Source: a bacterium
Lineage (GTDB): Bacteria > Actinomycetota > Acidimicrobiia > Acidimicrobiales > CATQHL01
Direction of reading: 5' to 3'
NCBI GenBank assembly: GCA_026706565.1
Contig: JAPOYM010000098.1
Location: forward strand, 1 to 43,007
Length of the DNA: 43,007 nt
Positions 10,239 to 41,174 of the stretch are shown one piece after another. A program made the translations under genes and the position numbers. The notes under the pieces were generated by a model. It saw nothing but the letters and a program-made list of their open reading frames with translations, was not told where the DNA came from and searched no databases. Position 1 is the first letter of the stretch. Each line of letters starts with the position of its first letter.

Positions 10239-10407
10239 GGTGCTCTCGCTCCTCTCCCCCCGGTGCTCGCCGGGGCGCGCCATTCTGCCAGTGTTGCTCG
10301 CCGCCCCGGGCTCCGTTCTCGATTCAGGGCTCAGAGCATGAGCGGGTAGGCTCTGACCAGGCGCTTCGCAGTCGAATACGGCGGCGCGAATCGTGTCGCC
10401 GGTGCTT

Positions 10408-10523
10408 GGATCCCGGCTTTCGCCGGTGCGACGGGCCGGGGTGTCGGCGGCGTTGCTCAGCAATCACCTAGATTCCGGCGTCCGCCGGTGTGACGGGTCG
10501 GAGCGTCGGCGGTATTGCCCAGC
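10408..10523. repeat. Two degenerate copies of the CCGGC..GCCGG repeat in a divergent intergenic region
   Basis: GGATCCCGGCTTTCGCCGGTGCGACGGGCCGGGGTGTCGGCGGCGTTGCTCAGC (10408-) and AGATTCCGGCGTCCGCCGGTGTGACGGGTCGGAGCGTCGGCGGTATTGCCCAGC (10470-). Confidence 0.7.
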
Positions 10524-18552: not shown

Positions 18553-18619
18553 GAAAATGCCGTCGAAACGGTTCAGAAAATGCCGTCGAAACGGTTCAGA
18601 AAATGCCGTCGAAATGGTA
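18553..18619. repeat. 23-bp tandem repeat, about 2.9 copies
   Basis: GAAAATGCCGTCGAAACGGTTCA units starting at 18553, 18576 and 18599. Confidence 0.95.
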
Positions 18620-21427: not shown

Positions 21428-22540
21428 TCAGGGAGCGAGGCGATCGGGATAGGCGCGGTCTGCAGAAGCGGTGTCGTGCAAGGCATCCAGCCTCTCCAAG
21501 GGCGGCACCGAGGCCGCGGCGGGGGCAGGCTCGCCGGGAAGCGGGAAATGGCAGGCCACGAACTGGCCCGAGGGGGCCGGGCGCAGCTCCGGCGCCTGCT
21601 CTGCGCAGAGGTCGGCGGCCCGGTCGCAGCGGGTGCGGAAGCGGCAGCCCGAGGGCGCCTCGAAGGGCGAAGGCGGGTCGCCGCGGAGCACGTCCTCGCC
21701 GCCCTCGGCGGCTGGGTCGAGTTGCGGTATCGAGGCCAGCAGGGCGGCGGTGTAGGGGTGGGCGGGCCGGTCGAAGACCGCGTCGGTCGGGCCGATCTCG
21801 CAGATCCGCCCCAAGTACATCACGCAGACCCGGTCGCTGATGCTCTTCACCACCGCCAGATCGTGGGCGATGAACAGCATGGTCAGGCCGTAGCGGTCCT
21901 TCAGGTCCTCGAGGAGGTTCAGGATCTGGGCCTGGATGGACACGTCGAGAGCTGAGACGGGCTCGTCGCAGATCAGCACGCGCGGGCCCAGCGCCAACGC
22001 CCGGGCGATGCAGATGCGCTGGCACTGGCCGCCGGAGAACTCGTGCGGACGGCGGTCGCCCACCTCGTCGAGGTCCATGCCGACGCTGTCCAACACGGCG
22101 CGCACGCGGTCGGTCGCCGAGGGGCCTCCGCCGGCTCGGGGGCCGGGGCGCTCGGGCCAGATGTCGAGACCCTCCCGCACGATGTCGGCGACCCGCCGGC
22201 GGGGGTTCAGCGAGGAGACCGGGTCCTGGAAGATCATCTGCACGCCGGTGCGGACCCGGCGCAGCTCCTCGCCGCGCAGCGCCGTCAGGTCGACGCCGTC
22301 GAAGACGACGCGCCCGGAGGTGGGGCGCGGGAGCTGCAGCACTGCCCGGGCGGTCGTGGACTTGCCGCAGCCGGACTCGCCGACCAGCCCCAAGGTCTCG
22401 CCCTCGGCCACGTCGAAGCTGACGCCGCTGAGCGCGCTCACCCGCCGGCCCCGGCCCGCCGGGTACCTCACGTGGAGGTCGGTCGCCTGCAGCAGCACCT
22501 CGCCGGTGGGCCGCAGGTGGGCGGCGCCGACTCCGGCCAT
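21428..22540 (-). CDS. Oligopeptide/dipeptide ABC transporter ATP-binding protein (OppF/DppF-like)
   Basis: Start trimmed to MAGVGAAHLRPTGE (ATG 22540); GESGCGKSTTARAVL, FSGGQCQRICIARAL, C-terminal oligopeptide ATPase Cys-rich region. Confidence 0.9.
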   Translation of the reverse strand: MAGVGAAHLRPTGEVLLQATDLHVRYPAGRGRRVSALSGVSFDVAEGETLGLVGESGCGKSTTARAVLQLPRPTSGRVVFDGVDLTALRGEELRRVRTGVQMIFQDPVSSLNPRRRVADIVREGLDIWPERPGPRAGGGPSATDRVRAVLDSVGMDLDEVGDRRPHEFSGGQCQRICIARALALGPRVLICDEPVSALDVSIQAQILNLLEDLKDRYGLTMLFIAHDLAVVKSISDRVCVMYLGRICEIGPTDAVFDRPAHPYTAALLASIPQLDPAAEGGEDVLRGDPPSPFEAPSGCRFRTRCDRAADLCAEQAPELRPAPSGQFVACHFPLPGEPAPAAASVPPLERLDALHDTASADRAYPDRLAP

Positions 22541-23604
22541 CAGGCCGCGCCCGCGGCGTCGCTGAGAGCCAGGCCGGCCGCGGTCCGACCGGCGTCGCGG
22601 TTGGCGGCCAGGGCGGCCTCGCCGTCGCTGGTGCCGGCGGGGTAGAAGCACGCGAAGCGGTGCTCGGCGGCGGCGTCGGCTGACAGCGCGGGCGACTCGG
22701 CGAGGCAGCGCGGTCGGGCGTGCGCGCAGCGCGGCGCGAAGGCGCAGCCGCCGGGCAGGGCGGCCAGGTCGGGCGGGCGCCCCGGAATGATCCGCAGGCG
22801 AGTGTGGCTGGGCTGGGCGACCTTGGGGATCGACTCGAAGAGAGCCTTCGTGTAGGGGTGGCGCATCACCGCGAAGAGCCGCGGCGTGGGCGCCTGCTCC
22901 ACGATCCGCCCGGCGTACATGACGACCACCTCGTCGGTCCGCCCCGCCACCACGCCGAGGTCGTGGGAGATGAGGATCATCGCCATGCTGTGCTGTCGCC
23001 TCAGCCGGTCCAGCAGGTCGAGTATCTGCTTCTGCACGGTGACGTCGAGCGCCGTGGTGGGCTCATCGGCGATCAGCAGCTTCGGCTCGCAGGCGAGGGC
23101 GATGGCGATGGCCGCCCGCTGCCGCATCCCGCCGGAGAGCTGATGGGGGTACTCCCGCAGTCGCCGGTCGGGATCGGCGATGCCGACCTGCTCCAGCAGC
23201 TCCCGGGCCCGTCGCATGGCCGCGCGGCGCGGCATCCTGCGGTGGTAGCGGAGCCCCTCGGCTATCTGCCGGCCGACCTGCATCACCGGATTCAGCGAAC
23301 CCGCGGGGTTCTGGAACACCATGGAGGCCTCCACGCCCCAGACGTGGCGGCTCTGGGAGCGCGGCAGGCTGCGCACGTCGCGGCCGTCGAGCAGCACGCG
23401 GCCGGTGGTCGCCGACACTCCCGCCGGCAGCAGGTCCATGACCGAGCGCGCCGTTGCGGACTTGCCCGAACCGGACTCGCCCACGACCCCCAGCGTCCGG
23501 CCGCCGCGCAGGCTGAACGACACGCCGTCCACCGCCTTGAGCTCTCCCCGGTCGGTGGCGAAGGACGTGTGCAGCTCCTCCACGACGAGCACGGGGCGGT
23601 TCAT
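22540..23604 (-). CDS. Oligopeptide/dipeptide ABC transporter ATP-binding protein (OppD/DppD-like)
   Basis: GESGSGKSATARSVMDLLP, LSGGMRQRAAIAIALACEPKLLIADEPTTALDVTVQKQILDLL. Confidence 0.92.
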   Translation of the reverse strand: MNRPVLVVEELHTSFATDRGELKAVDGVSFSLRGGRTLGVVGESGSGKSATARSVMDLLPAGVSATTGRVLLDGRDVRSLPRSQSRHVWGVEASMVFQNPAGSLNPVMQVGRQIAEGLRYHRRMPRRAAMRRARELLEQVGIADPDRRLREYPHQLSGGMRQRAAIAIALACEPKLLIADEPTTALDVTVQKQILDLLDRLRRQHSMAMILISHDLGVVAGRTDEVVVMYAGRIVEQAPTPRLFAVMRHPYTKALFESIPKVAQPSHTRLRIIPGRPPDLAALPGGCAFAPRCAHARPRCLAESPALSADAAAEHRFACFYPAGTSDGEAALAANRDAGRTAAGLALSDAAGAA

Positions 23605-23638: not shown

Positions 23639-23989
23639 TCAGAACAGCGAGAGGACGGTGCGCGGCGGGCGGGCGATCACGGCCCGCCGTCCGCGCACCA
23701 CGACGGGACGCTGCATGAGCCGCGGGTGCGCCGCCAGCAGGTCGGCCACTTCGGCGGGGCCGGCAACGTCCTCCTCGGTCAGCCCCAAGTCGCTGAAGTG
23801 CTTGTCGCGGCGCACCAGGTCGGAGGGGTCGTTCTCCAGGATCTCTACGAGGTGCGCCAGCTCTGCGCGGTCGAGGGGGTTCTTGAGGTACTGGACGACG
23901 TCGAACTCGACGCCTCGCTCCGCCAGCACGTCGAGGGCGGTGCGGGAACTGCCTCAACCGGGGTTGTGGTACACAAGGGTGTCGGCCAT
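23639..23989 (-). CDS. arsC: ArsC/Spx-family arsenate reductase-like selenoprotein candidate (in-frame TGA at 23954-23956 read as Sec12)
   Basis: MADTLVYHNPG-U-GSSRTALDVLAERGVEFDVVQYLKNPLDRAELAHLVEILENDPSDLVRRDKHFSDLGLTEEDVAGPAEVADLLAAHPRLMQRPVVVRGRRAVIARPPRTVLSLF; the ORF track gives only the part after the TGA (96 aa from 23929). Confidence 0.82.
23906..23935 (-). promoter_or_regulatory. Bacterial SECIS-like hairpin
   Basis: CUCGACG-U-GCU-[GGCGG]-AGC-GAGG-CGUCGAG; 7-bp lower stem, 3-bp upper stem, loop starting GG, 29 nt between UGA and loop. Confidence 0.6.
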
Positions 23990-24038: not shown

Positions 24039-25538
24039 TCAGCCGTCCAGTCCCCAGGCGGGGCCGATCGCATCCCAGACCGCCTCGGCGAGGCGGTTCC
24101 CGCCCGCGACGGTGAGATGGACGCCGTCCCCGCGGCGCAGCCGGACGCCGTCGATCTCGTCGGTGTAGCCGCCGTCGGCGTCGCTGAACAGTGCCCAAGT
24201 GTCCACGTAGGCAACCTGGGGATGCTCGGCTGCCGCCGCTTCGTAGACCTCGTTCATGCGGGCCAGCCCGCCCGACAGCCGCGACTCCCGGACCGGGGGC
24301 TGGCCCACCCACACAGTCTGGGTGTCCGGTTGGCCCAGCAGCGTCATGATCCGCCCGACGCGCCGGCGGTACAGATCGAGCCACTCCTCGCTGTAGCGGT
24401 CCAGGATCTCGCCCTCGTGCTCCACGTTCTGGAAGTCGTTGGCGCCGAAGAGCACCACGATCACGTCGGGGAGGCTCTCGGTCAGCACGCCGGCGAGGTG
24501 CTGCGACCAGTCGAAGAAGTCCGGGCGTGAGAGTCCCGTAGCCGGCCGCGGGTCCAGTTCGATGCGGACGAGGGCGGCGGGGGTGGCCCGCGCCAGGCCC
24601 TCGCCCAGGTCGCGGCTGATGGAGTCGCCGCCCACGTACATCCGCAAGGGCTCGTCCGCATCGGGTGTCCGGGGCGCGTCGAACAGCACCGGTTCGGCGG
24701 TCTCCCCCTCCGGCGCAGCCCCGTCGGTCGCCCCAGCGCCGGGGCGGGCCACGACGTAACCGGCCGGGCACGCCGTCGGATCGTCCGACAGAGCCTGGGT
24801 CTCATCGGCGCCCTCGGGCAGTGCCGCCTCGGGCCCCGGGTCCTCGACGCCGCCGGCGGTCGTCGTGGGCGCGGTCGCGTCCTCCAGGACGCAGTCCACC
24901 CCCTCGATCGGCGTGATCAACCCGTCGGGCGGCGGGCCCCCACCCCAAGGGACCTCCCCGAACTCCCCGGCGTCCCCCTCGGGTTCGTCGTCCCCCGCCA
25001 CGCCCCCCTCGTGCTCGTCGCCCCTCGGCGGCGCGGCGTGCCGCTCCGGCTCGGAGGGCCACGCCGCCGGTTCGGCGCCCGCCTCGGGTTCGGCGGGCGA
25101 CAGGGCCCCTTCCCCCTCGGGCGCCCCGGCGACCGGAGCGGGCCGAGGCTCGCCCCGGCGGGCCGCGGTGGCCCGGGCGCGGGCGATCAGGGCATCCACG
25201 TCGTAGACCTCCTCCTCTCCGTCGAGCGCTCTCGCGAGGCTCTCGGCGGGGCGGTTCAGCGACAGTCCGCGGGCCACGCGGTCGGCGGCCTCAGCGGCTC
25301 CTAGGGCCACGTCGCGCTGGGTGCCGAGGGGCTGCCGCTCGGCGAGGCCCACCAGGGCGCCGGACCCCAGCAGCGCCCCCGCCCCGAGCGCCAGCAGACC
25401 AGCCGCCACGATCTGGCTCGGGCGAAGCGGCGGCCGCCGGTCCGGGGGCGGGCCGCGGGACTCGAGGGCCTCGACGGGCGGCCAGGGCGGCTGCCCAGCA
25501 GCGGCGGGCGGGCGGTCTCGGGCAGAGTCGGCGGCCAT
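24039..25538 (-). CDS. Membrane-anchored SGNH/GDSL hydrolase-like (DUF459-like) protein
   Basis: N-terminal TM, low-complexity acidic/Pro linker, then YVGGDSISRDLGEGLA, VVLFGANDFQN, DGVHLTVAGGNRLAEAV. Confidence 0.85.
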   Translation of the reverse strand: MAADSARDRPPAAAGQPPWPPVEALESRGPPPDRRPPLRPSQIVAAGLLALGAGALLGSGALVGLAERQPLGTQRDVALGAAEAADRVARGLSLNRPAESLARALDGEEEVYDVDALIARARATAARRGEPRPAPVAGAPEGEGALSPAEPEAGAEPAAWPSEPERHAAPPRGDEHEGGVAGDDEPEGDAGEFGEVPWGGGPPPDGLITPIEGVDCVLEDATAPTTTAGGVEDPGPEAALPEGADETQALSDDPTACPAGYVVARPGAGATDGAAPEGETAEPVLFDAPRTPDADEPLRMYVGGDSISRDLGEGLARATPAALVRIELDPRPATGLSRPDFFDWSQHLAGVLTESLPDVIVVLFGANDFQNVEHEGEILDRYSEEWLDLYRRRVGRIMTLLGQPDTQTVWVGQPPVRESRLSGGLARMNEVYEAAAAEHPQVAYVDTWALFSDADGGYTDEIDGVRLRRGDGVHLTVAGGNRLAEAVWDAIGPAWGLDG

Positions 25539-27053: not shown

Positions 27054-27240
27054 GTCCGGTCGGGGACGCCGGTGGTCGTTCGCTCCTTCGGCGCGGGCGC
27101 AAGGCGTCGCGAAGCGCTCCCGTGCGTCGCCTCCCTCGGGTGTCTGTCTGTCCGGTCGGGGCCGCCGGTGGTCGTTCGCTCCTTCGGCGCGGGCGCAAGG
27201 CGTCGCGAAGCGCCCCCCGGCGTCCCCTCCCTCCCCTTCT
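27054..27240. repeat. Tandem duplication, 96-bp period, 2 copies
   Basis: GTCCGGTCGGGG(A/C)CGCCGGTGGTCGTTCGCTCCTTCGGCGCGGGCGCAAGGCGTCGCGAAGCGC starting at 27054 and 27150. Confidence 0.92.
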
Positions 27241-27349: not shown

Positions 27350-27542
27350 TGCTGGACTCAGTGCAGAACTTGCTGGTGCGCCTCGCAGGCGCCGCCGTTT
27401 GGAATTTCGCTATCTCCGCTGACACCCGTACTATGTTCCGGGACTATCGGTATTTTCGGCCTGCCGAAACCAATTGCAAAACCAACTGCAGGAGCGCTGC
27501 CCCATTCATTCCCGACCTTCTGGATTGCGATCGGCGCACGGG

Positions 27543-30500
27543 ATGAGGCCCGTTCGCGCCATCCGTCGTGTCGGGTTGTGGTGCGGGGTGGCGGTGGCGC
27601 TGCTGGCTGCCGGCAGCGCCGTGACGGACCCGGCGGCGGCCACGGGCGGCCGGGTGGGTTCGTTGTTGGCGATGTCGATCACGTCGTCGAGCGTGGAGTT
27701 CCGCTGGCCGGAAGTGGCGGGCGCGGACGGTTACATGGTGTCGTGGCGGGAGGGCGGCGCTGACCGCTCGGCGGCGCGTTCGGTCTACTCATCGGTGAAC
27801 CGTCGAATGGTGTCGGGGCTGGCGCCGTCGTCGACGTATGTGTTCGAGGTGGCGGCGACGCGGGCGGGCGTTGTGGACGAGGGGTCGACGAGCACGCCGT
27901 TGTGGGCGACGACCCTGGCCAGAGAGGGCGCGGCTCCTCAGGCGGTCGGGAGTTCAGGTCCGTTCGTGCCGACGCGTGCGGGGGCGCCGGTGGCGGTGTC
28001 GGTGACCCGCACGGCCGTGGCGCTTCGATGGCCCGCGGTGCCGGGCGCGGAGGGGTACGTGATCTCGTGGTGGCGGGTGAGGGGCGCCCGTGCGTCGGCG
28101 TCCACCGTGTTCGTCTCGGGGACGACGCACACGGTGGCGGGCCTCTTGGCGGGCACGGAGTACTTCTTCGATCTGGCTTACACCCGCGGCGGTGTGGTGC
28201 AGCGCGAGTGGACCAGCGAGCGGTCGCGGGTGACGACCCTGGGCGCCTTGATCGGCGGCGGCGGCTCGTCGTCGCCGCCTTCCCCGCGGCCCTCGCCGCC
28301 TTCGCCCCCGCCCTCGCCGCCTTCGCCGCCGCCTTCGCCGCCTTCGCCCCCGCCCTCGCCGCCCCAGCCGCCGGCGCAGGTCCCGGTAGTCAGTGTGACT
28401 GCGGGTGCGGGTGTGACCGAGGGCACCTCCGCGGACTTCACGGTCTCGGCGTCTCCGCCGCCGTCGCAGAACCTGGTGGTGAAGGTGACGGTGGGTCAGA
28501 GCGGCGACGTGATCTTGGCCCAGCAGCTCGGCAAGAAGTCGGTGACGGTGCCGCCGTCGGGGTCGACGGTCTTCTCGGTGGCGACGGAGAACGACAAGAT
28601 CGACGAGCTGGCGGGGGCGGCGACGCTGACGGTGGACAGCCACACGGGTTACACGGTGGCGGCGCCGCCGAAGAATGCGGCGTCGGTGCCGGTGCGGGAC
28701 GACGACGCGACGCCTGTGGTGTTGGCGGCGGCGGCCGCCGCGGTGGCCGAGGACGGCGGTTCTACGGAGGTGACGGTCACGCTGGGCCGCACATTGGGGG
28801 CGGGCGCTCAGATCATGGTGCCGTTGACGGTCACCGGCGCCACCGTGGCCACGCACTACACGCTGGCGGCCAAGACGGGCGCGGGCGTGAACACGGGCGT
28901 GTCGGTGAGCACGTCCACCCCGAACAGCCAGCAGAACCCGGCGGTGACTTTCACCGCGGGGGCGCGGGTGGCGAGGCTGGTACTGACGGCGGTGCCGAAC
29001 ACCGACACGACGGCGCGGACGGTGTCGGTCGCCTATGCCACGGACCGTCAGACGCAGGCGTCGGGCCTGGAGGGCGGCGGGATCTCTACTTCCGGGTCGG
29101 CTTCGGTGAAGATCGCCAACGACGACGGCACGGCGCAGTCGCCGGTGGTGGTCGTCAAGGCTGGCCCGGCGGTGACCGAGGGCACCGCGGCGACCTTCAC
29201 GGTCTCTGCTTCGCCGGCGCCGACGTCGGCGTTGACGGTGTCGCTGACGGTCACTCAGACGGGGGCGTTCGTGGCGCAGACCCACCTGGGGCAGAAGACG
29301 GTGAGTGTGCCCACCGGCGGGTCGGCCACCTACCCGGTGCCCACCGTCGGCGACGGCACCGCCGAGGCGGACGGGTCGGTCACGGTGACCCTCGGCACCG
29401 GTTCGGGCTACACGCCTTCGGAGGCGCCGTCCAACGCGGCGACAGTGAAGGTCGCCGACGACGACACCCCGGCTGGTCCGGTGGTGAGCGTGGCAGCGGG
29501 CTCGGAGGTCACCGAGGGCGGTGCTGCGTCGTTCACGGTCACGGCCACCCCGCCGCCGCCGCAGGACCTCACAGTGAAGTTGACGGTGACCCAGACGGGG
29601 AGTTACGTGGGGGCGGGCGACCTCGGCTCCGACACCGTCACCGTGCCCGCCGGCGGGTCTGTCGCCTACACGGTGGCGACGGTGAACGACGATGCCGACA
29701 AGGCGGCGGGGTCGGTGACGGTCACGCTCAACGCCGGCCCGGGCTACACGGTCGCCGCCCCGACCGCGAACGCAGCGACGGTGGCGGTGAAGGACGACGA
29801 ACCGACCAGCGTGGTCTGGGCGGCCGCCTCGGGGGCGATCGCCGAGGACGGCGGCACGAAAGACATCACCATCACGCTGGGCCGCACGCTGGGGGCCGCC
29901 GGGCACATCATGGTGCCGCTGAAGGTGACCGGCGCTGTGGTGGGCACGCATTACACGCTGACCGCCAAGACGGGCCAAGGCGTGAACACCGGGGTGACGG
30001 TGAGCACGTCGAACCCGCACAGCGCGCAGAACCCGGGCGTGACGTTCGGCGCGGGGGCGCGGGTGGCGACGTTGGTGCTCACGGCGCTGCCGAACAGCGA
30101 CTACGACACTCGGACGGTGGTGGTGACCCTCGACCCGGATCGCGCGAAGGAGGCCCGCGGGCTCGGCGGCGGCGGCATCGGCACCTCCGGCAGCGCCTCG
30201 GTGACTATCACCAACGACGACGTCGGCTCGCCGTCGGATCCGGTGATCAGCATCACGGCGGGCTCGGCGGTGACCGAGGCCACCGCGGCGAGCTTCACGC
30301 TCACCGCCTCCCCGAACCCGTCGTCGGCGCTGACAGTGAAGCTGACGGTCACCCAGACAGGGAATTACGTGGCGTCGGGCGACTTGGGCTCAGACACCGT
30401 CACGGTGCCAACGTCGGGTTCGAAGACCTACACCGTGGACACCGTCGGCGACGGCGTCGACGAGGCGGACGGGTCGGTGACGGTCACGCTGAACGCCTCC

Positions 30501-33500
30501 TCGGGCTACAGGGTGGCGAACTCGCCGAACAACGCGGCCACGGTGACGGTGAGAGACGACGACGTGCCCGAGATCAGCATCGCGGCGGGCGACGATGTGA
30601 TCGAGGGCACGGGGGCGTCGTTCACGCTGTCCGCCTCGCCCGCGCCGGCGGCGGAGTTGACGGTGAAAGTGACCGTGACGCAGACCGGGTCGTTCGTGCA
30701 TGCGGACGACTTGGACGCCCAGACCGTGACGGTGCCCACGGCGGGGCTGAAGACCTATGAGGTGCCGACGGTGGGCGACCTCACCGACGAGGCGGACGGG
30801 TCGGTGACGGTCACGCTGAAGGCCGGAGAGGGCTACACGGTGTCGTCGTCGAAGAACGCGGCCACCGTTGACGTCAGCGACGACGACTTGCCGGGGCAGG
30901 TCCCGGTGGTGAGTGTGGCTGCGAGTCTGGGGGTGGTTGAGGGCACCTCCGCGGTCTTTACCGTCTCGGCGTCTCCGCCGCCGTCGCAGAACCTGGTGGT
31001 GAAGGTGACGGTGGGCCAGAGCGGCGACGTGATCTTGGCCCGGCAACTGGGCAAGAAGTCGGTGACGGTGCCGCCGACAGGGACGGCCATCGTCTCAGTG
31101 GCGACGGAGAACGACAAAGTCGACGAGCCGGCGGGGGCGGCGACGCTGACGGTGGACAGCCACACGGGTTACACGGTGGCGGCGCCGCCGAAGAATGCGG
31201 CGTCGGTGCCGGTGCGGGACGACGACGCGACGCCTGTGGTGTTGGCGGCGGCGGCCGCCGCGGTGGCCGAGGACGGCGGTTCGACGGAGGTGACGTTGAC
31301 GCTGGGCCGCACGTTGGGGACCGCCGGGCACATCATGGTGCCGTTGACGGTCACCGGCGCCACTGTGGCCACGCATTACACGCTGGCGGCCAAGACGGGC
31401 ACGGGCGTGAACACCGGGGTGACGGTGAGCACGTCCACCCCGAACAGCCCGCAGAACCCGGCGGTTACTTTCGGCGCGGGGTCGCGGGTGGCGACGTTGG
31501 TGCTCACGGCGGTGCCGAACACCGACACGACGGCGCGGACGGTGTCGGTCGCCTATGCCACGGACCGTCAGACGCAGGCGTCGGGCCTGGAGGGCGGCGG
31601 GATCTCTACTTCCGGGTCGGCTTCGGTGAAGATCGCCAACGACGACGGCACGGCGCAGTCGCCGGTGGTGGTCGTCAAGGCTGGCCCGGCGGTGACCGAG
31701 GGCACCGCGGCGACCTTCACGGTCTCTGCTTCGCCGGCGCCGACGTCGGCGTTGACGGTGTCGCTGACGGTCGCTCAGACGGGGGCGTTCGTGGCGGCGA
31801 CCCACCTGGGGCAGAAGACGGTGAATGTGCCCACCGGCGGGTCGGCCACCTACACCGTGCCGACGCTGCCCGACGGCACAGACGAGGCGGACGGGTCGGT
31901 CACGGTGACCCTCGGCACCGGTTCGGGCTACACGCCGTCGGAGGCGCCGACGAACGCGGCGACAGTCAAGGTCGCCGACGACGACGACGGCGGCACGCCG
32001 TCGGATCCGGTGATCAGCATCACGGCGGGCTCGGCGGTGACCGAGGGCACTGCGGCCAGCTTCACGGTTTCTGCTTCGCCGGCGCCGACGTCGGCGTTGA
32101 CGGTGGCGCTGACAGTCACCCAGACGGGGGCTTACGTGGGGTCGGGGGACCTCGGCTCCGACACCGTGATTGTGCCCACCGGCGGGTCGGCCACCTACAC
32201 CGTGCCGACGCTGCCCGACAACACAGACGAGGCCGACGGGTCGGTGACGGTCACGCTCACCGCCGACACGGGCTACACGGTGTCCTCGTCGAACAACGCG
32301 GCCACCGTGACGGTGACCGACGACGACTCGACGGGCGTGGTGTTGGCGGCCGGCGCGGGGGCGATCGCCGAGGACGGCGGCACGAAAGACATCACCATCA
32401 CGCTGGGCCGCACCCTGGAGGCGGGCGCACAGGTCACGGTGCCGCTGACGGTCACCGGCGCTGTGGCCGGCACGCATTACACGCTGGCGGCCAAGACGGG
32501 CCAAGGGGTGAACACCGGGGTGACGGTGAGCACGTCGGGCTCGCACAGCGCGCAGAACCCGGCGGTGACCCTCGCCTCCGGGGCGCAGGTGGCGACCTTG
32601 GTGCTCACGGCGCTGCCGAACCTCGACACGACGACCCGCACGGTGTCGATCGCCTACGGCACCGGCCAGCGGGCGCCCGCCGCGGCGGGCCTCAGCGGGG
32701 GCATCTCAACCTCCGGCAGCGCCTCGGTGACCATCACCAACGACGACCCCGTCACGCCGTCGGACCCGGAGATCAGCATCACCGCGGGCTCGGCAGTGAC
32801 CGAGGGCACCGCGGCGAGCTTCACGGTCACCGCCTCCCCGGCCCCGTCGGAGGCGTTGACGGTGCAGGTGACGGTGACGCAGACGGGGTCGTTCGTGGCG
32901 GCGGACCACCTCGACGCCCAGACCGTCACGGTGCCCACCGGCGGGTCGGCCACCTACACCGTGCCGACGCTGCCCGACAGCACAGACGAGGCGGACGGGT
33001 CGGTGACGGTCACGCTCAACGCCGGAGACGGCTACACGGTGTCGTCGACGAACAACGCGGCCACGGTGACGGTGAGAGACGACGACGTGCCGCAGATCAG
33101 CGTCCGCAAGGGTAAGGACGTGAACGAGGGCAGCCCCGCGAGCTTCACAATCACCGCCTCCCCGGCGCCGGCGGCCCCGTTGACGGTGAAGCTGACGGTG
33201 ACGCAGACGGGGGTGTTCGTGGCGCCGGGTGACCTCGACGCTCAGACCGTGACGGTGCCCACGTCGGGGATCAAGGCCTACACGGTGGCCACCGTGGGCA
33301 ACGCCGTCAACGAGGCGGACGGGTCGGTGACGGTGACGGTCAACGCCGGAACGGGCTACACGGTGGCGAACTCGCCGAACAACGCCGCCACCGTCAAGGT
33401 GAAAGACGACGACATACCAGAGATCAGCGTCACCGCGGGCTCGACGGTGATCGAAGGCGGGGGCGCGGTGTTCACGGTCAGCGCCTCTCCGGTTCCGGCG

Positions 33501-36500
33501 GCCCCGTTGACGGTGAAGTTCACAATGGCGCAGACGGGGATGTTCGTGGCGGCGGGCGCCCTCGGTCCCAAGACGGTGTCGGTGCCCACGTCGGGGTCGG
33601 TGGACTACCCGGTGGCGACGGCGAACGACAACGTGGGCGAGGTGGCCGGATCGGTGACGCTGACCCTCGGTGCCGGAGACGGCTACACGGTGGCGGCGTG
33701 GCCGAACAATGCGGCGACGGTGGAGGTGACCGATAACGACACCACCGAGTTGGTGCTGGCGGCGGCGGCCGCCTCGGTGGCCGAGGACGGCGGCTCGACT
33801 GAGGTGACCCTCACGTTGGGGCGCGCCTTGGGGACCGACGCCCGGGTCGAGGTGCCGTTGACGGTGACCGGCGCCACGGTGGGCGAGCACTACAGGCTGG
33901 CGGCCAAGACAGGCACGGGAGTCAACATCGGCGTGTCGCTCAGCCACTCGGGTCGCAACAGCGCGCATCACCCGGCGGTGGTCTTCCGAGCGGGGGCGCG
34001 GGTGGCGAGGCTGGTGCTCACGGCCGTGCCTAACAACGACATGGTCGCTCGCACCGTGGCGATCACCCACGCCACGGACCGTCAGATACAGGCGTCGGGG
34101 CTGGGCGGCGGCCGGCTCTCCGCCTCTGGGTCCGCTTCGGTGGGGATCGTCAACGACGACGGCACGGCGTCGGACCCGTTGGTGAGCGTCAAGGCGGGCT
34201 CGGCGGTGACCGAGGGCACTCCGGCGACCTTCACCGTGACCGCTTCCCCGGCGCCGTCGGCGGCGTTGACGGTGTCGTTGACGGTGGCCGAGACGGGGGC
34301 TTTCGTGGGGGCGGGCGACTTGGGGCAGCAGTCGGTGACGGTGCCTGTGGGGGGGTCGGTCACCCACACCGTGGCCACGACCCGCGACAACACCGGCGAG
34401 GCCGACGGGTCGGTGACGGTGACCGTGGGCACCGGGTCGGGCTACACGCCCGCGGGCGCCCCGGCGAATGCGGCGTCGGTGGCAGTCATCGACGACGACG
34501 GCCCGGTGGTGAGCGTGACGGCGGGCTCGGCGGTGACCGAGGGCGAATCGGTGTCGTTCACGGTGACGGCCAGCCCGGCGCCGACGGCACCGTTGGCGGT
34601 GAAGGTGGCCGTGACAGAGGCGGGGTCGTTCGCCGCTCCGGGGAGCCTGGGAATCCACACGGTGACGGTGCCCACGACGGGGTCGACGGTCTATGGGGTG
34701 CCGACGGTGAATGACCGCACCGACGAGTTGCCGGCGGCGGTCAAGCTGACGTTGGCGGACGCTTCGGGTTACAGGGTGGCGGCGCCGCCGAACAACGCCG
34801 CGTCGGTGAACGTGGGCGACGACGACCCGATGGTAGTGGTCGTGGCGGCGGCCGCGGAGGAGATCGCCGAGGACGGCGCCACGACGGAAGTGACGGTCAC
34901 GCTGGGTCGCGCGTTGGGGAACGCCATGCTGGTCAACGTGCCGTTGACGGTCACCGGCGCCACTACGGACACGCATTTCACGTTGACAAAGAAGACCGGT
35001 TTCGGTGTGAACACCGGCGTAGGTCTGAACAAGGGGTCCTTCGTCGGGGGCGCGCAGAACCCGGTGGTGACCTTCGCTGGGACTCAGCGGCAGCCGTCGG
35101 CGCGGGTGGCGAGGTTCGTGTTGACGGCTGTGGCGAACACCGACAGGACGGAGCGGACGGTGTCGATCACGCCTTCCATGGGCCGCCTGCGCGCCTCCTC
35201 GGTGGGCCTCGGCGGCGGCGGGGTAGTCGCCACCGGGGGCGCTTCGGTGAAGATCGCCAACGACGACGGCACGGCTTCGAACCCGGTGGTGATCGTCACG
35301 GCGGGCCCGGCGGTGACCGAGGGCACCCCGGCGACCTTCACCGTGACCGCTTCCCCGGCGCCGGCGTCGCCGTTGGCGGTGTCGTTGACCGTGACGCAGT
35401 CGGGGGCTGTCGTGGCGGCGATCGACCTGGGTTCCAAGACGGTGACGGTGCCCGTGACGGGGACGGTGACCCACACCGTGCCGACGGCGAGCGACAACAC
35501 CGACGAGGCGGTCGGGTCTGTGACGGTGACCGTCGGCGCCTCGGCCGGCTACACGCCGTCTGCGGCGCCGACGAACGCGGCCACCGTGCGCGTGCGCGAC
35601 GACGACCCGACGAGCGTGGTGTTGGCGGCGACGGCAGCGTCGGTGGCCGAGGCTGGCGGCGCCACGGAGGTCACGCTCACGCTGGGCCGCGCCCTGGTGG
35701 GCGAAGGCGCCCGGGCCACAGTCCCGTTGACGGTGACCGGCGCCAATGTGGGCTGGCACTACACGCTGGCAGCGAAGACGGGCGCGGGTGTGAACACCGG
35801 CGTGACGGTGAGCACGTCGCACCCGCACAGTGCGCAGAACCCGGCGGTGATCTTCACTCCGGGGGCGCGGGTGGCGACGCTGGTGCTGAAGGCTCTGGCG
35901 AACACCGACACGGCGTCCCGGAGAGTGTCGTTCGCCTACGGCACCGGCGGGCGGGCGCCCACGTCGACACGCATGGGCAGCGGCGGCTTCGCCACCTCCG
36001 GCACCGCCTCGGTGGAGATCACCAACGACGATGTGCCGCAGATCAGCATCTCGGCGGGTGCGGGCGTGGCCGAAGGGAACGCCGCGACCTTCACGGTGAC
36101 CGCCTCCCCGACCCCGGCGGCGGCGTTGACGGTGAAGCTGACGGTGACGCAGACGGGGGACTACGTGGCGACGAGCAACCTGAACGCCCAGACGGTGACG
36201 GTGCCCAAGTCGGGGTCGAAGACCTACACGGTGGGCACCGTTGAGGACAGCGTCGACGAGGCGGACGGGTCGGTGACGGTGACGGTCGATGCCGGGCAGG
36301 GCTACACGGTGGCGAAGACGCCGGCGAACGCTGCCACCGTCGTGGTGAGCGACGACGATGTGCCGGAGATCAGCGTCACGAAGGGTGCGGACGTGGCCGA
36401 GGGGACCGCCGCGAGCTTCACTGTCAGTGCCAACCCCGCGCCGGCGGCGCCGTTGACGGTGAAGCTGACGGTGACGCAGACGGGGGACTACGTGGCGACG

Positions 36501-39500
36501 AGCAACCTGAACGCCCAGACGGTGACGGTGCCCAAGTCGGGGTCGAAGACCTACACGGTGGGCACCGTTGAGGACAGCGTCGACGAGGCGGACGGGTCGG
36601 TGACGGTGACGGTCGATGCCGGGCAGGGCTACACGGTGGCGAAGACGCCGGCGAACGCTGCCACCGTCGTGGTGAGCGACGACGATGTGCCGGAGATCAG
36701 CGTCACGAAGGGTGCGGACGTGGCCGAGGGGACCGCCGCGAGCTTCACGATCAGCGCCTCCCCGACCCCGGCGGCGCCGTTGACGGTGAAGCTGACGGTG
36801 ACGCAGACGGGGGACTACCTGGCGCCGACCGCCGTGCGTTCCGACACCGTCACGGTGCCCACGTCGGGGTCGAAGACCTACACGGTGGGCACCGTCGACG
36901 ACAGCGTCGACGAGGCGGACGGGTCGGTGACGGTGACGCTCAAAGCCGGGCAGGGCTACACGGTGGCGAAGACGCCGGCGAACGCTGCCACCGTCGCGGT
37001 GAGCGACGACGATGTGCCGGAAGTCAGCATCGCTGGGCTCTTGGATGTGACCGAGGGGGCGCCGGCGAGATTCAGGCTCACGGCCTCCCCGGCGCCGGCG
37101 GCGGCGTTGACGGTGAAGCTGACGGTGGCCCAGACGGGGGACTACGTGGATGACGACGACTTGGGTTCCCAGACGGTGTCGGTGCCCACGGGCGGGGCGG
37201 TGATCTATGAGGTGGACACCGACGGCGACGACGCCGACGAGGCGGACGGGTCGGTGACGGTGACGCTCAACGCCGGGGAGGGCTACACGGTGGCGGACTC
37301 GCCGAACAACGCCGGCAGCGTCGACGTCAGCGACGACGATGTTCCCCAGATCAGCGTCACGAAGGGCGCGGACGTGACCGAGGCGACCGCGGCGCGCTTC
37401 ACGATCAGCGCCAGCCCCAAGCCCGCGGCGGCATTGACGGTCAAGTTCAGGGTGACGCAGTCGGGGGACTACGTGGCCACCGACGACCGGGGCAACAAGA
37501 CGGTGACGGTGCCCACGTCGGGGTCGGTGACCCACGAGGTGCCTACCAAGGACGACATCGTCGACGAGGCGGACGGGTCGGTGACGGTGACGCTCAGAGC
37601 CGGCACGGGCTACACGGTGGCGAACTCGCCGAACAACGCTGCCACCGTCGCGGTGAGCGACGACGACGTGCTGTTGATCAGCGTCTCGGCGGGGTCGGGT
37701 GTGACCGAGGGGACCGAGGCGCGCTTCACGGTCAGCGCCAGCCCCCGCCCCGCGGCCCCCTTGACGGTGAAGTTCACGGTGACCCAGTCGGGGGACTACG
37801 TGGACTCCGACGATCTGGGTTCCAAGACGGTGACGGTGCCCACGTCGGGGTCGGTGACCTATGACGTGGACACCGACGGCGACGACGCCGACGAGGCGGA
37901 CGGGTCGGTGACGGTGACGCTCAACGCCGGGGAGGGCTACACGGTGGCGAACTCGCCGAACAACGCCGCCAGCGTCGCGGTGAGCGACGACGACGATTCA
38001 CTTCCGGAGATAAGTGTCGAGGCGGGCGATGCGGTCACCGAGGGCGCCGCGGCGAGCTTCACCATCACTGCCGACCCGGCGCCGGCGGCGGATTTGACGG
38101 TGAAGCTGCGCGTCGAGACAACGGGGGCGTTCGTGGTGGGCAAGCACAAGGGTTCCAAGACGGTGACGGTGCCCACGGGCGGGTCGGTGACCCACGAGGT
38201 GCCTACCAAACCCGACAGCGACGACGAGCCGAACGGGTCGGTGACGGTGACGATCAGGGCCGGCCAGGGTTACGAGGTCGCCGACGAGCCGGACAACGCG
38301 GCCACGGTGACCGTGAACGACGACGACGACCCCATCCCGGAGATAAGCGTCGAGGCGGGCGATGCGGTCACCGAGGGCGCCGCGGCGAGCTTCACGATCA
38401 CGGCCGACCCGGCGCCCGCGTCGGCGCTCGAGGTGAAGATCGACCTCACCGCGCAAGGGAATGTCGTGACACGACGGAACCTGAACCGCAAGAAGGTGAC
38501 AATCCCGACGGCGGGGTCGTTGACCTTCACGGTGAAGACCGAGGACGACCGCGTCGACGAGGCGGCGGGGTCGGTGAAGCTGGCGCTCAAAGCCGGGAAC
38601 GGCTACACGGTCGCCAAGTCGCCGGCCGACGCGGCGGAGGTGACCGTCAACGACGACGATCCGACGGTGAGCGTCACCGCAGGCAACACCGTGCGGGAGG
38701 GGACGGCGGCGAGCTTCACGATCAGCGCCAGCCCCAAGCCCGCGTCGGCGTTGACGGTGGAGTTCACGGTGACCCAGACGGGAGGTTTCGCGGACAAGAG
38801 GGATGAGGGCGCCAAGACGGTGGATGTGCCCACGTCGGGGTCGGTCGTATACGAGGTGCCCACCCTGGACGACAACGTCGACGAGCCGGCGGGGTCGGTG
38901 ACGGTGACCCTCGACGAGGTCGTGGGCTACGGGCTGGGAACCGACAGCGAGGCGACGGTGGCGGTGCAGGACAACGAGAGGACGGTCGTGAGCCTCGCAG
39001 TGCCCGCGGGCGCCGTGGCCGAGAACCGCGGCACCAAGGAGCTGACGTTCACGCTGACCCACACGCTGGCGACGGGCGCTCGGATCGAGCTGCCGTTGAA
39101 AGTGGCCGGCGCTACAGCGGGCACGCATTACACGTTGGCGCTCAAGACGGGCCAGGGGGTGAACACCGGGGTGACGCTCAGCACCTCCTCGCCGCACAGC
39201 GCGCAGAACCCGGCGCTGGTCTTCGCGGCGGGGGCCCGGGTTGCGACGCTGGTGCTGACGGCGCTGCCGAACATGGACACGACCATGCGGACGGTGTCGG
39301 TGGAATGCACCGACGAGGGCAGCAACGGCCGCAGGCCGAAGTTGCAAGGCAGCGGCGGCGGCGGCATCACCAGGTGTCGGACCGCATCGGTGGTCATCGC
39401 CGACGACGACGCACCGACGGTGAGCGTGGCGGCGGGTCCGACTGTGACCGAAGGCACTGCGGCCACGTTCACCGTCACCGCCACCCCGGCGCCGTCCTCC

Positions 39501-41174
39501 GCGCTGACGGTGAATCTGACGGTCGCCCACACGGGCGCTCATGTGGCCTCAGGGAATGTGGGCACCGGCAAGACGGTCACGGTGAGCACCGCCGGGACCG
39601 GCACCTTCACGGTGCCCACGGTGGGCGACAGCACCGACGAGCAGGCGGGGCTGGTGACGGTGACGCTGGAGGCCGGCTCGACCTACCACGTGGCCGCGGC
39701 GCCCGACAACGCGGCGTCGGTCATCGTCAACGACGACGACACCGGCCCGTTGGATCCGGAGGTGAGCGTCGAAGCGGTCAATGTCGGCGGTCGGGCGACC
39801 GAGGGGAGCCCTCTCCCTGTGATCTTCCGGCTCAGAGTCGCCCCCTCGCCTGCGCAGGAACTCACGGTGCAGGTGAAGGTGACCCAGACAGGCGATTTCG
39901 TAGCGCCCGAAAACATCGGCACCGTGGAAGTGAAAGTGCCGCGCAACACACAAAATGTCCGCTTCAACGTGCCGGTAGAGGATGACAGCGTCGACGAGCC
40001 GGCGGGGAAGGTGACCGCGACCGTCCTCCCCAGCGGGACCATCTACAAGGTGGCCGGCGCCCCCGACAACGACGCCGAGGTCACCGTCGCCGACGACGAG
40101 CCGACGATTGTCACCTTGGCCGCTGCCTCCGGCGGCATCGCCGAGGCCGGCGGCAGCAAGGAGATCACCATCACGTCCGCTAGGACGCTGCCGGCGGGCG
40201 CCACGATCACGGTGCCGTTGACGCTGACGGGCGCCACGGTGGCGACCCATTACACGCTGGCGCTCAAGACGGGGCAGGGCGTCAACACGGGGGTGACGCT
40301 CAGCACCTCCTCGTCGCACAGTGCGCAGAACCCGGCCGTGGTTCTCGGGGCAGGGGCCGCGGTGGCGACGTTGCTGCTGACGGCCGTACCGAACTCCGAC
40401 TCGGATTCCCGGACGGTCTCGGTCACCTACGGCACAGGCAGTCGGGCGCCGGGCGCTCAGGGGATCGGCGGCGGCGGCATCGCCCCCACCGGCGCCGCCG
40501 CGGTGGCCATCACCGACGACGAGAACGCCTCGCAGTCACCGGTCGTGAGCGTGACCGCGGGTCCGCCTGTCACCGAGGGCGCCGCGGCGAGCTACATCAT
40601 CACCGCCAACCCGGCGCCCACCTCGGATCTGACGGTCACCTTGACGGTCGCCCAGACGGGCAACTACGGAGACCCCGCCCGCGTGGGCGCCAACAAGACG
40701 GTGACGGTGCCCGCGTCGGGCTCAGTCGCCTACACGGTGGGAACCGTGGACGACGCTGACGACGAGGCGGACGGGTCGGTGTCGGTGACGGTCGTCGCAG
40801 GCTCGGGCTACAGGGTCACCGCCGCGGCCAACAGCACAGCCTCGGTGTCCGTCAGAGACAACGACGAGCTGCGGCCCCCCACGGAGCTGAGCATGGTCTG
40901 CAACAGCGGCCCCGAACTCGTGGCCTCCTGGACCGCCGTCAACTACGACGGCGACTACGGAGGCAGATACTTGGTGTTCTTCGGCCAGAACGGCCGTGCC
41001 TTGGGCTCCGCGAGCACGAGTGCAACGACGGTCAGCAGTGACGACCGCCAGTTAGGTTGGCCTGCCGGGCCGCAATCGGGTCAGGTCTACTCCGTGAGGG
41101 TCCGGGCCAGCGGGACGGGCGGTGTCCCGTCCTCGGGCTTCACCCCCTGGGCGACGGCCAACGCCTGCCCATAA
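27543..41174 (+). CDS. Giant secreted repetitive protein: signal peptide, FN3-like domains, Pro-rich linker, about 35 Calx-beta-like modules
   Basis: 4543 aa from ATG 27543 (MRPVRAIRRVGLWCGVAVALLAAGSAVTDPAAA); recurrent xVSVTAGxxVTEGTAASFTVxASPAPxxxLTVxLTVTQTG...VTVPxxGSxTYTVxTxxDxxDEADGSVTVTLxxGxGYTVAxxxxNAATVxVxDDD. Confidence 0.92.
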   Translation: MRPVRAIRRVGLWCGVAVALLAAGSAVTDPAAATGGRVGSLLAMSITSSSVEFRWPEVAGADGYMVSWREGGADRSAARSVYSSVNRRMVSGLAPSSTYVFEVAATRAGVVDEGSTSTPLWATTLAREGAAPQAVGSSGPFVPTRAGAPVAVSVTRTAVALRWPAVPGAEGYVISWWRVRGARASASTVFVSGTTHTVAGLLAGTEYFFDLAYTRGGVVQREWTSERSRVTTLGALIGGGGSSSPPSPRPSPPSPPPSPPSPPPSPPSPPPSPPQPPAQVPVVSVTAGAGVTEGTSADFTVSASPPPSQNLVVKVTVGQSGDVILAQQLGKKSVTVPPSGSTVFSVATENDKIDELAGAATLTVDSHTGYTVAAPPKNAASVPVRDDDATPVVLAAAAAAVAEDGGSTEVTVTLGRTLGAGAQIMVPLTVTGATVATHYTLAAKTGAGVNTGVSVSTSTPNSQQNPAVTFTAGARVARLVLTAVPNTDTTARTVSVAYATDRQTQASGLEGGGISTSGSASVKIANDDGTAQSPVVVVKAGPAVTEGTAATFTVSASPAPTSALTVSLTVTQTGAFVAQTHLGQKTVSVPTGGSATYPVPTVGDGTAEADGSVTVTLGTGSGYTPSEAPSNAATVKVADDDTPAGPVVSVAAGSEVTEGGAASFTVTATPPPPQDLTVKLTVTQTGSYVGAGDLGSDTVTVPAGGSVAYTVATVNDDADKAAGSVTVTLNAGPGYTVAAPTANAATVAVKDDEPTSVVWAAASGAIAEDGGTKDITITLGRTLGAAGHIMVPLKVTGAVVGTHYTLTAKTGQGVNTGVTVSTSNPHSAQNPGVTFGAGARVATLVLTALPNSDYDTRTVVVTLDPDRAKEARGLGGGGIGTSGSASVTITNDDVGSPSDPVISITAGSAVTEATAASFTLTASPNPSSALTVKLTVTQTGNYVASGDLGSDTVTVPTSGSKTYTVDTVGDGVDEADGSVTVTLNASSGYRVANSPNNAATVTVRDDDVPEISIAAGDDVIEGTGASFTLSASPAPAAELTVKVTVTQTGSFVHADDLDAQTVTVPTAGLKTYEVPTVGDLTDEADGSVTVTLKAGEGYTVSSSKNAATVDVSDDDLPGQVPVVSVAASLGVVEGTSAVFTVSASPPPSQNLVVKVTVGQSGDVILARQLGKKSVTVPPTGTAIVSVATENDKVDEPAGAATLTVDSHTGYTVAAPPKNAASVPVRDDDATPVVLAAAAAAVAEDGGSTEVTLTLGRTLGTAGHIMVPLTVTGATVATHYTLAAKTGTGVNTGVTVSTSTPNSPQNPAVTFGAGSRVATLVLTAVPNTDTTARTVSVAYATDRQTQASGLEGGGISTSGSASVKIANDDGTAQSPVVVVKAGPAVTEGTAATFTVSASPAPTSALTVSLTVAQTGAFVAATHLGQKTVNVPTGGSATYTVPTLPDGTDEADGSVTVTLGTGSGYTPSEAPTNAATVKVADDDDGGTPSDPVISITAGSAVTEGTAASFTVSASPAPTSALTVALTVTQTGAYVGSGDLGSDTVIVPTGGSATYTVPTLPDNTDEADGSVTVTLTADTGYTVSSSNNAATVTVTDDDSTGVVLAAGAGAIAEDGGTKDITITLGRTLEAGAQVTVPLTVTGAVAGTHYTLAAKTGQGVNTGVTVSTSGSHSAQNPAVTLASGAQVATLVLTALPNLDTTTRTVSIAYGTGQRAPAAAGLSGGISTSGSASVTITNDDPVTPSDPEISITAGSAVTEGTAASFTVTASPAPSEALTVQVTVTQTGSFVAADHLDAQTVTVPTGGSATYTVPTLPDSTDEADGSVTVTLNAGDGYTVSSTNNAATVTVRDDDVPQISVRKGKDVNEGSPASFTITASPAPAAPLTVKLTVTQTGVFVAPGDLDAQTVTVPTSGIKAYTVATVGNAVNEADGSVTVTVNAGTGYTVANSPNNAATVKVKDDDIPEISVTAGSTVIEGGGAVFTVSASPVPAAPLTVKFTMAQTGMFVAAGALGPKTVSVPTSGSVDYPVATANDNVGEVAGSVTLTLGAGDGYTVAAWPNNAATVEVTDNDTTELVLAAAAASVAEDGGSTEVTLTLGRALGTDARVEVPLTVTGATVGEHYRLAAKTGTGVNIGVSLSHSGRNSAHHPAVVFRAGARVARLVLTAVPNNDMVARTVAITHATDRQIQASGLGGGRLSASGSASVGIVNDDGTASDPLVSVKAGSAVTEGTPATFTVTASPAPSAALTVSLTVAETGAFVGAGDLGQQSVTVPVGGSVTHTVATTRDNTGEADGSVTVTVGTGSGYTPAGAPANAASVAVIDDDGPVVSVTAGSAVTEGESVSFTVTASPAPTAPLAVKVAVTEAGSFAAPGSLGIHTVTVPTTGSTVYGVPTVNDRTDELPAAVKLTLADASGYRVAAPPNNAASVNVGDDDPMVVVVAAAAEEIAEDGATTEVTVTLGRALGNAMLVNVPLTVTGATTDTHFTLTKKTGFGVNTGVGLNKGSFVGGAQNPVVTFAGTQRQPSARVARFVLTAVANTDRTERTVSITPSMGRLRASSVGLGGGGVVATGGASVKIANDDGTASNPVVIVTAGPAVTEGTPATFTVTASPAPASPLAVSLTVTQSGAVVAAIDLGSKTVTVPVTGTVTHTVPTASDNTDEAVGSVTVTVGASAGYTPSAAPTNAATVRVRDDDPTSVVLAATAASVAEAGGATEVTLTLGRALVGEGARATVPLTVTGANVGWHYTLAAKTGAGVNTGVTVSTSHPHSAQNPAVIFTPGARVATLVLKALANTDTASRRVSFAYGTGGRAPTSTRMGSGGFATSGTASVEITNDDVPQISISAGAGVAEGNAATFTVTASPTPAAALTVKLTVTQTGDYVATSNLNAQTVTVPKSGSKTYTVGTVEDSVDEADGSVTVTVDAGQGYTVAKTPANAATVVVSDDDVPEISVTKGADVAEGTAASFTVSANPAPAAPLTVKLTVTQTGDYVATSNLNAQTVTVPKSGSKTYTVGTVEDSVDEADGSVTVTVDAGQGYTVAKTPANAATVVVSDDDVPEISVTKGADVAEGTAASFTISASPTPAAPLTVKLTVTQTGDYLAPTAVRSDTVTVPTSGSKTYTVGTVDDSVDEADGSVTVTLKAGQGYTVAKTPANAATVAVSDDDVPEVSIAGLLDVTEGAPARFRLTASPAPAAALTVKLTVAQTGDYVDDDDLGSQTVSVPTGGAVIYEVDTDGDDADEADGSVTVTLNAGEGYTVADSPNNAGSVDVSDDDVPQISVTKGADVTEATAARFTISASPKPAAALTVKFRVTQSGDYVATDDRGNKTVTVPTSGSVTHEVPTKDDIVDEADGSVTVTLRAGTGYTVANSPNNAATVAVSDDDVLLISVSAGSGVTEGTEARFTVSASPRPAAPLTVKFTVTQSGDYVDSDDLGSKTVTVPTSGSVTYDVDTDGDDADEADGSVTVTLNAGEGYTVANSPNNAASVAVSDDDDSLPEISVEAGDAVTEGAAASFTITADPAPAADLTVKLRVETTGAFVVGKHKGSKTVTVPTGGSVTHEVPTKPDSDDEPNGSVTVTIRAGQGYEVADEPDNAATVTVNDDDDPIPEISVEAGDAVTEGAAASFTITADPAPASALEVKIDLTAQGNVVTRRNLNRKKVTIPTAGSLTFTVKTEDDRVDEAAGSVKLALKAGNGYTVAKSPADAAEVTVNDDDPTVSVTAGNTVREGTAASFTISASPKPASALTVEFTVTQTGGFADKRDEGAKTVDVPTSGSVVYEVPTLDDNVDEPAGSVTVTLDEVVGYGLGTDSEATVAVQDNERTVVSLAVPAGAVAENRGTKELTFTLTHTLATGARIELPLKVAGATAGTHYTLALKTGQGVNTGVTLSTSSPHSAQNPALVFAAGARVATLVLTALPNMDTTMRTVSVECTDEGSNGRRPKLQGSGGGGITRCRTASVVIADDDAPTVSVAAGPTVTEGTAATFTVTATPAPSSALTVNLTVAHTGAHVASGNVGTGKTVTVSTAGTGTFTVPTVGDSTDEQAGLVTVTLEAGSTYHVAAAPDNAASVIVNDDDTGPLDPEVSVEAVNVGGRATEGSPLPVIFRLRVAPSPAQELTVQVKVTQTGDFVAPENIGTVEVKVPRNTQNVRFNVPVEDDSVDEPAGKVTATVLPSGTIYKVAGAPDNDAEVTVADDEPTIVTLAAASGGIAEAGGSKEITITSARTLPAGATITVPLTLTGATVATHYTLALKTGQGVNTGVTLSTSSSHSAQNPAVVLGAGAAVATLLLTAVPNSDSDSRTVSVTYGTGSRAPGAQGIGGGGIAPTGAAAVAITDDENASQSPVVSVTAGPPVTEGAAASYIITANPAPTSDLTVTLTVAQTGNYGDPARVGANKTVTVPASGSVAYTVGTVDDADDEADGSVSVTVVAGSGYRVTAAANSTASVSVRDNDELRPPTELSMVCNSGPELVASWTAVNYDGDYGGRYLVFFGQNGRALGSASTSATTVSSDDRQLGWPAGPQSGQVYSVRVRASGTGGVPSSGFTPWATANACP
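28378..29465 (+). repeat. Segmental duplication copy 1 within giant gene
   Basis: Collinear with 30898-31985 at offset 2520 nt; 28986-29252 identical to 31506-31772 by reading. Confidence 0.85.
30898..31985 (+). repeat. Segmental duplication copy 2 within giant gene
   Basis: See copy 1 (offset 2520 nt = 840 codons). Confidence 0.85.
36125..36421 (+). repeat. 297-bp perfect direct repeat copy 1
   Basis: Identical by reading to 36452-36748; period 327 nt = 109 codons. Confidence 0.9.
36452..36748 (+). repeat. 297-bp perfect direct repeat copy 2
   Basis: See copy 1. Confidence 0.9.

Follow-up and report, generated by a model that had tools for sequence, protein, structure and literature searches.

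A gene of the ArsC family in an uncultured member of the Acidimicrobiia very probably encodes a selenoprotein, in which an in-frame UGA at codon 12 would be read as selenocysteine. The predicted protein belongs to the glutaredoxin-dependent ArsC family (COG1393/TIGR00014-like) and has a UxxS motif. The sequence-only reading had proposed that selenocysteine replaces Cys12, and the analysis supports this. Residue 12 is best read as selenocysteine, with strong support, because the corresponding column of homologues contains only TGA or cysteine codons, the TGA is conserved in the genus, genes of the selenocysteine machinery are present in the genome, and RNA structure follows the TGA in these genes as a class. 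We are much less sure that arsenate reduction is the true role of the enzyme, and "arsenate reductase" serves here as a family name. The window, meaning the whole stretch of 43,007 nucleotides that was analysed, contains the following features of the gene and its surroundings.

23639..23989, minus strand: predicted selenocysteine-containing ArsC-family gene (ATG at 23989, terminal TGA at 23641-23639, 116 residues with U12)
23954..23956, minus strand: in-frame TGA (UGA) as codon 12, where the catalytic cysteine would be, probably read as selenocysteine
23913..23946, minus strand: candidate bacterial SECIS hairpin from fold prediction, about 10-43 nt past the first base of the UGA
22540..23604, minus strand: oligopeptide/dipeptide ABC transporter ATPase, dppD type (Pfam ABC_tran and oligo_HPY), located 34 bp 3' of the ArsC gene
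21428..22651, minus strand: second oligopeptide ABC transporter ATPase, dppF type (Pfam matches and congener context)
24039..25538, minus strand: DUF459/SGNH-hydrolase family gene (Pfam DUF459, 1.2e-51), the upstream neighbour

Translation of 23639-23989 on the minus strand gives MADTLVYHNPG[TGA]GSSRTALDVLAERGVEFD...TVLSLF followed by the terminal TGA, in agreement with the earlier description of a single ArsC-family frame with TGA as codon 12. This codon occupies 23956-23954, the stretch after it reads GSSRTALDVLAERG..., and the rest of the frame is open up to the terminal TGA. The frame has no cysteine codon. As had been anticipated, standard ORF finding yields only a 96-aa remnant with a GTG start (23639-23929). 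Such calling drops the active site, so that the enzyme is easily overlooked in this group. The read-through frame was set aside as evidence in itself, because a mechanical count over the six frames of this GC-rich window gives 60 cases in which a long open frame follows an in-frame TGA. The case for a selenoprotein thus rests on the comparison with homologues.

Profile matching was done with the codon-12 TGA read as cysteine. The protein passes the gathering cut-off of 24 for Pfam ArsC (PF03960; 46.5 bits, E 4.8e-12), and TIGR00014 (arsC) is by far the best-scoring family (2.5e-28), at 98.9-99 bits against an equivalog cut-off of 106.05. Alignment with R773 ArsC (PDB) places residue 12, R60, R94 and R107 in register, with the nucleophile position 12 coded by UGA; the three arginines carry the numbers of the R773 catalytic arginines, as the sequence-only reading had stated. 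The AlphaFold2 model has a pLDDT of 95.3, and a fold search with it ranks arsenate reductases as the best PDB matches, above Spx and YffB.

Codon 12 was compared across 110 homologous loci, which are those that cover the codon among the results of searches of relatives and GTDB genomes, a few of them being one locus retrieved by both searches. It is TGA in 44, TGC in 55, TGT in 11 and never another codon; the cysteine expected in this column is thus present in 66, with TGA in all the remainder. H8, S15, R60, R94 and R107 are retained in every one of the 44 TGA members, as is the UxxS motif with Ser15, which is U12-G-S-S15 in this gene. The TGA members come from metagenome-assembled genomes labelled Acidimicrobiia, Gammaproteobacteria (including Pseudomonadales) and Deltaproteobacteria/Myxococcota. 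The earlier remark that the type appears rare needs qualifying, since 44 TGA loci from several phyla show that it is not very rare. In a survey of the class, 67 of 198 genomes had a match and 19 of these an internal TGA, the position of which was checked individually for the loci that were retrieved.

Within the genus, all seven ArsC-bearing members, this gene included, have a single internal TGA, and it lies at codon 12. The six congener homologues are 72-82% identical to this gene; an ArsC copy was not detected in one further congener draft (G004). Between this gene and its congeners dN is 0.11-0.17 and dS 0.43-0.57 (dN/dS about 0.26-0.37), there is no second stop, and pN is well below pS 3' of codon 12. 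These comparisons indicate that the ArsC-bearing congeners retain the TGA under purifying selection. Read as a stop, a TGA where the catalytic cysteine belongs would inactivate the enzyme, and the gene could then be a decaying ArsC gene with a nonsense mutation in its active-site codon. Such decay was looked for in close relatives and was not seen. Six congeners and many further lineages share the TGA, no second lesion is present and selection acts downstream, so a pseudogene was rejected as exceedingly improbable. The conservation bears equally on a sequencing or assembly error that turned TGC or TGT into TGA. Independent assemblies of different species have the same TGA, and this explanation, too, was rejected, the chance of it being minute.

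A tree was built from 105 distinct proteins, and its TGA members all fall in one half, alongside 21 Cys members. The best tree has to switch between TGA and Cys six times, and bootstrap trees 6-9 times, which makes changes in either direction, or recurrent loss, likely; the well-supported branches, taken alone, are compatible with a single origin.

The source genome is a draft of 187 contigs, 75.6% complete, and its near relatives are labelled Acidimicrobiia. It encodes a canonical tRNA-Sec with anticodon TCA (64.3 bits, cut-off 47) and, on the same contig (C127), SelA (345 bits; L010:1339-2895). SelD (349 bits; L016:1492-2500) has an in-frame TGA of its own, at HGAGUAGK, and the genome therefore has at least two selenoprotein genes. 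Formate dehydrogenase was considered as an additional selenoprotein and dismissed, the only matches being weak molybdoenzyme matches without a TGA. The search for selA, selB, selC and selD that had been proposed thus recovered selC, selA and selD, but not selB: a TIGR00475 profile search did not find SelB in the 75.6%-complete draft, and the matches inspected were EF-Tu, IF2 and LepA. Contig C127 ends 96 bases beyond the selA stop. In the congeners inspected (G001, G003, G006) selB directly follows selA, and all seven congeners have SelB, that of G006 with a winged-helix domain. Since the contig breaks where selB starts in congeners, and since these have SelB, an assembly gap likely explains why SelB is missing from the draft. 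In a set of 60 genomes, tRNA-Sec or SelB was found in 18/18 genomes with TGA-ArsC versus 13/19 with Cys-ArsC, and both together in 16/18 versus 8/19 (p=0.0035, ignoring relatedness).

UGA is decoded as another residue in some organisms, and homologues have cysteine in the codon-12 column, so a suppressor or recoded tRNA might insert cysteine or tryptophan at this codon. This is very improbable for a genome with a canonical tRNA-Sec, SelA and a UGA-coded SelD. All five identified neighbours (dppF, dppD, DUF459, MBOAT and RNase J), like the ArsC-family gene itself, terminate with TGA; UGA is a working stop here, and the earlier exclusion of a global reassignment is borne out. RNA structure after codon 12, moreover, is confined to the TGA members.

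This structure is a clear signal for the TGA members as a class. Relative to synonymous shuffles, positions +18 to +60 after codon 12 have a mean z of -1.66 in 39 distinct TGA members, which are related and so do not amount to 39 independent tests, versus a mean z of -0.04 in 66 Cys members. In TGA members these positions have the strongest structure along the gene. Stem scoring with a G-in-loop rule did not discriminate in three of four groups. Taken singly, the hairpin of this gene is weakly supported as a SECIS element. Its predicted apical loop is GACGU, beginning with G at 23932. Its stability is not above that of dinucleotide shuffles, the best p against synonymous shuffles is a marginal 0.043 over several segments tried, and the pairing register differs slightly between congeners.

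The reading of codon 12 as selenocysteine suggests the following mechanism. SelA and SelD would make the Sec-tRNA, SelB would deliver it, and tRNA-Sec(UCA) would decode UGA-12, guided by an mRNA hairpin just 3' of the codon; the final UGA would terminate translation normally. In the thioredoxin-like fold, the Sec12 selenolate is predicted to lie just ahead of helix 1, with R60, R94 and R107 close by, and would most likely attack an oxidised substrate, which may be arsenate, another oxyanion or a thiol substrate. Because the frame has no cysteine codon, an external thiol would have to resolve the intermediate, for example glutathione or mycothiol working with a (myco/gluta)redoxin. Mycothiol is a plausible external reductant: MshC-like ligases occur in five of the six congeners searched, at 407-418 bits, below the 485 cut-off. 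Incorporation, substrate and reductant are the parts of this explanation that we infer.

The earlier label of a probable selenocysteine arsenate reductase is upheld for selenocysteine; the arsenate part is left short by a score below the TIGR00014 cut-off and by a context that is not an ars operon. Chances are about even that the selenoprotein is a thiol/selenol oxidoreductase with the ArsC fold whose substrate is not arsenate but perhaps an organic disulfide or protein thiols, a view that differs from the explanation above in substrate only and has the selenocysteine in common with it. Besides the shortfall from the equivalog cut-off of NCBI arsC, it is favoured by the pumps and the neighbours. 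Neither pump, Acr3 or ArsB, turned up in this genome or in six congeners, although that result comes from seven drafts and concerns these two pumps alone. Such a resistance context is the usual one for an arsenate reductase of this type, though not a strict requirement. The identified neighbours are unrelated to arsenic, the gene being placed between the DUF459 and MBOAT genes and the dppD-dppF peptide transporter. The dppD and DUF459 neighbours are kept beside ArsC in six congeners. Genes for dppDF lie near Sec-ArsC in two separate Acidimicrobiia lineages (L051:5001-8323 and L047:5001-7562), in the lineage other than this genus with an RDD-family gene between; a dppD-like gene adjoins the ArsC homologue in G043, and secDF lies upstream of TGA-ArsC in the gammaproteobacterial locus examined. 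We know of no functional link between dppDF and the Sec-ArsC gene. Against a different substrate, the residues of the catalytic site favour ArsC-type chemistry, as the R773 positions (residue 12, H8 and the three arginines) are kept throughout the TGA members, and arsenate reductases outrank Spx and YffB in the fold search. A narrower proposal, in which the Acidimicrobiia enzyme is no arsenate reductase but has a redox role in peptide uptake, with mycothiol as reductant and selenocysteine as the sole chalcogen nucleophile, is speculative and rather unlikely.

Several repeats were observed besides. In the window, a 4566-aa open frame on the plus strand (27474-41174), rich in Thr, Ala and Val and built of tandem repeat units of about 327 bp, looks like a gene for a giant secreted repeat protein. 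It is preceded by a 96-bp tandem duplication with 94% matches (27054-27233). At 18553-18618 there is a nearly perfect 23-bp tandem repeat of 2.9 copies, GAAAATGCCGTCGAAACGGTTCA. A REP-like, palindrome-bearing short repeat, CCGGCGAAAGCCGGGATCCA, occurs at 10406-10429 on the minus strand and at the end of the selA contig C127 (L010), which breaks right after this copy. The SelA protein (L010:1339-2895) has three copies of a 24-residue tandem repeat, YSNPESDTEDRQATAAAERPPPIR, before its YSNLEFD motif. The repeat is absent from three congeners, whose length varies at that place, and may be a real expansion or an assembly artefact.

Among known systems, the predicted protein resembles the glutaredoxin-dependent ArsC of R773 and E. 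coli (PDB 1jzw, 1i9d) in fold, with a model TM-score of 0.85 normalised to the query, and in the aligned positions of the residue-12 nucleophile, H8, R60, R94 and R107. It differs from R773 ArsC in having about 32% identity to it, UGA for Cys12, no ars operon and only 116 residues, without the C-terminal extension. Spx and YffB belong to the same fold family and have lower sequence and fold scores. The Spx motif is CxxC, unlike the UxxS found here. The UxxC selenocysteine ArsC-like protein ("Arsenate reductase 2", cd03032/NF041106) shares the ArsC superfamily and the place of the selenocysteine; in contrast to it, the TGA members collected here all have Ser15.

The closest counterpart is the UxxS selenocysteine arsenate reductase, described in 2005 from 14 Sargasso Sea sequences (PMC1088965), counted 77 times in the GOS data in 2008 as "ArsC 1" (PMC2398784) and listed in tables of 2022 and 2026 reviews (PMC9312934, PMC13188914). 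The functions of such selenoproteins are still largely uncharacterised according to the 2026 review (PMC13188914). This gene is therefore not of a new kind, as the sequence-only reading had allowed. In the literature searched, Acidimicrobi- together with selenoprotein gave only incidental mentions. The likeness to the UxxS enzymes extends to selenocysteine at the catalytic cysteine position, the U-G-S-S sequence, widespread Cys homologues and, as a candidate here, a bacterial SECIS-like hairpin downstream. With both Sec and Cys forms of the same small enzyme available from nature, the contribution of selenium to an ArsC-type reductase would become directly testable. What is new is a well-documented representative in uncultured Acidimicrobiia. 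Unlike the UxxS members from metagenomes, this gene lies in a genome with genes of the selenocysteine machinery, in a named class and beside conserved peptide-transporter neighbours, and a selenoprotein family known mainly from unassigned marine metagenome fragments is thereby tied to a defined class of bacteria.
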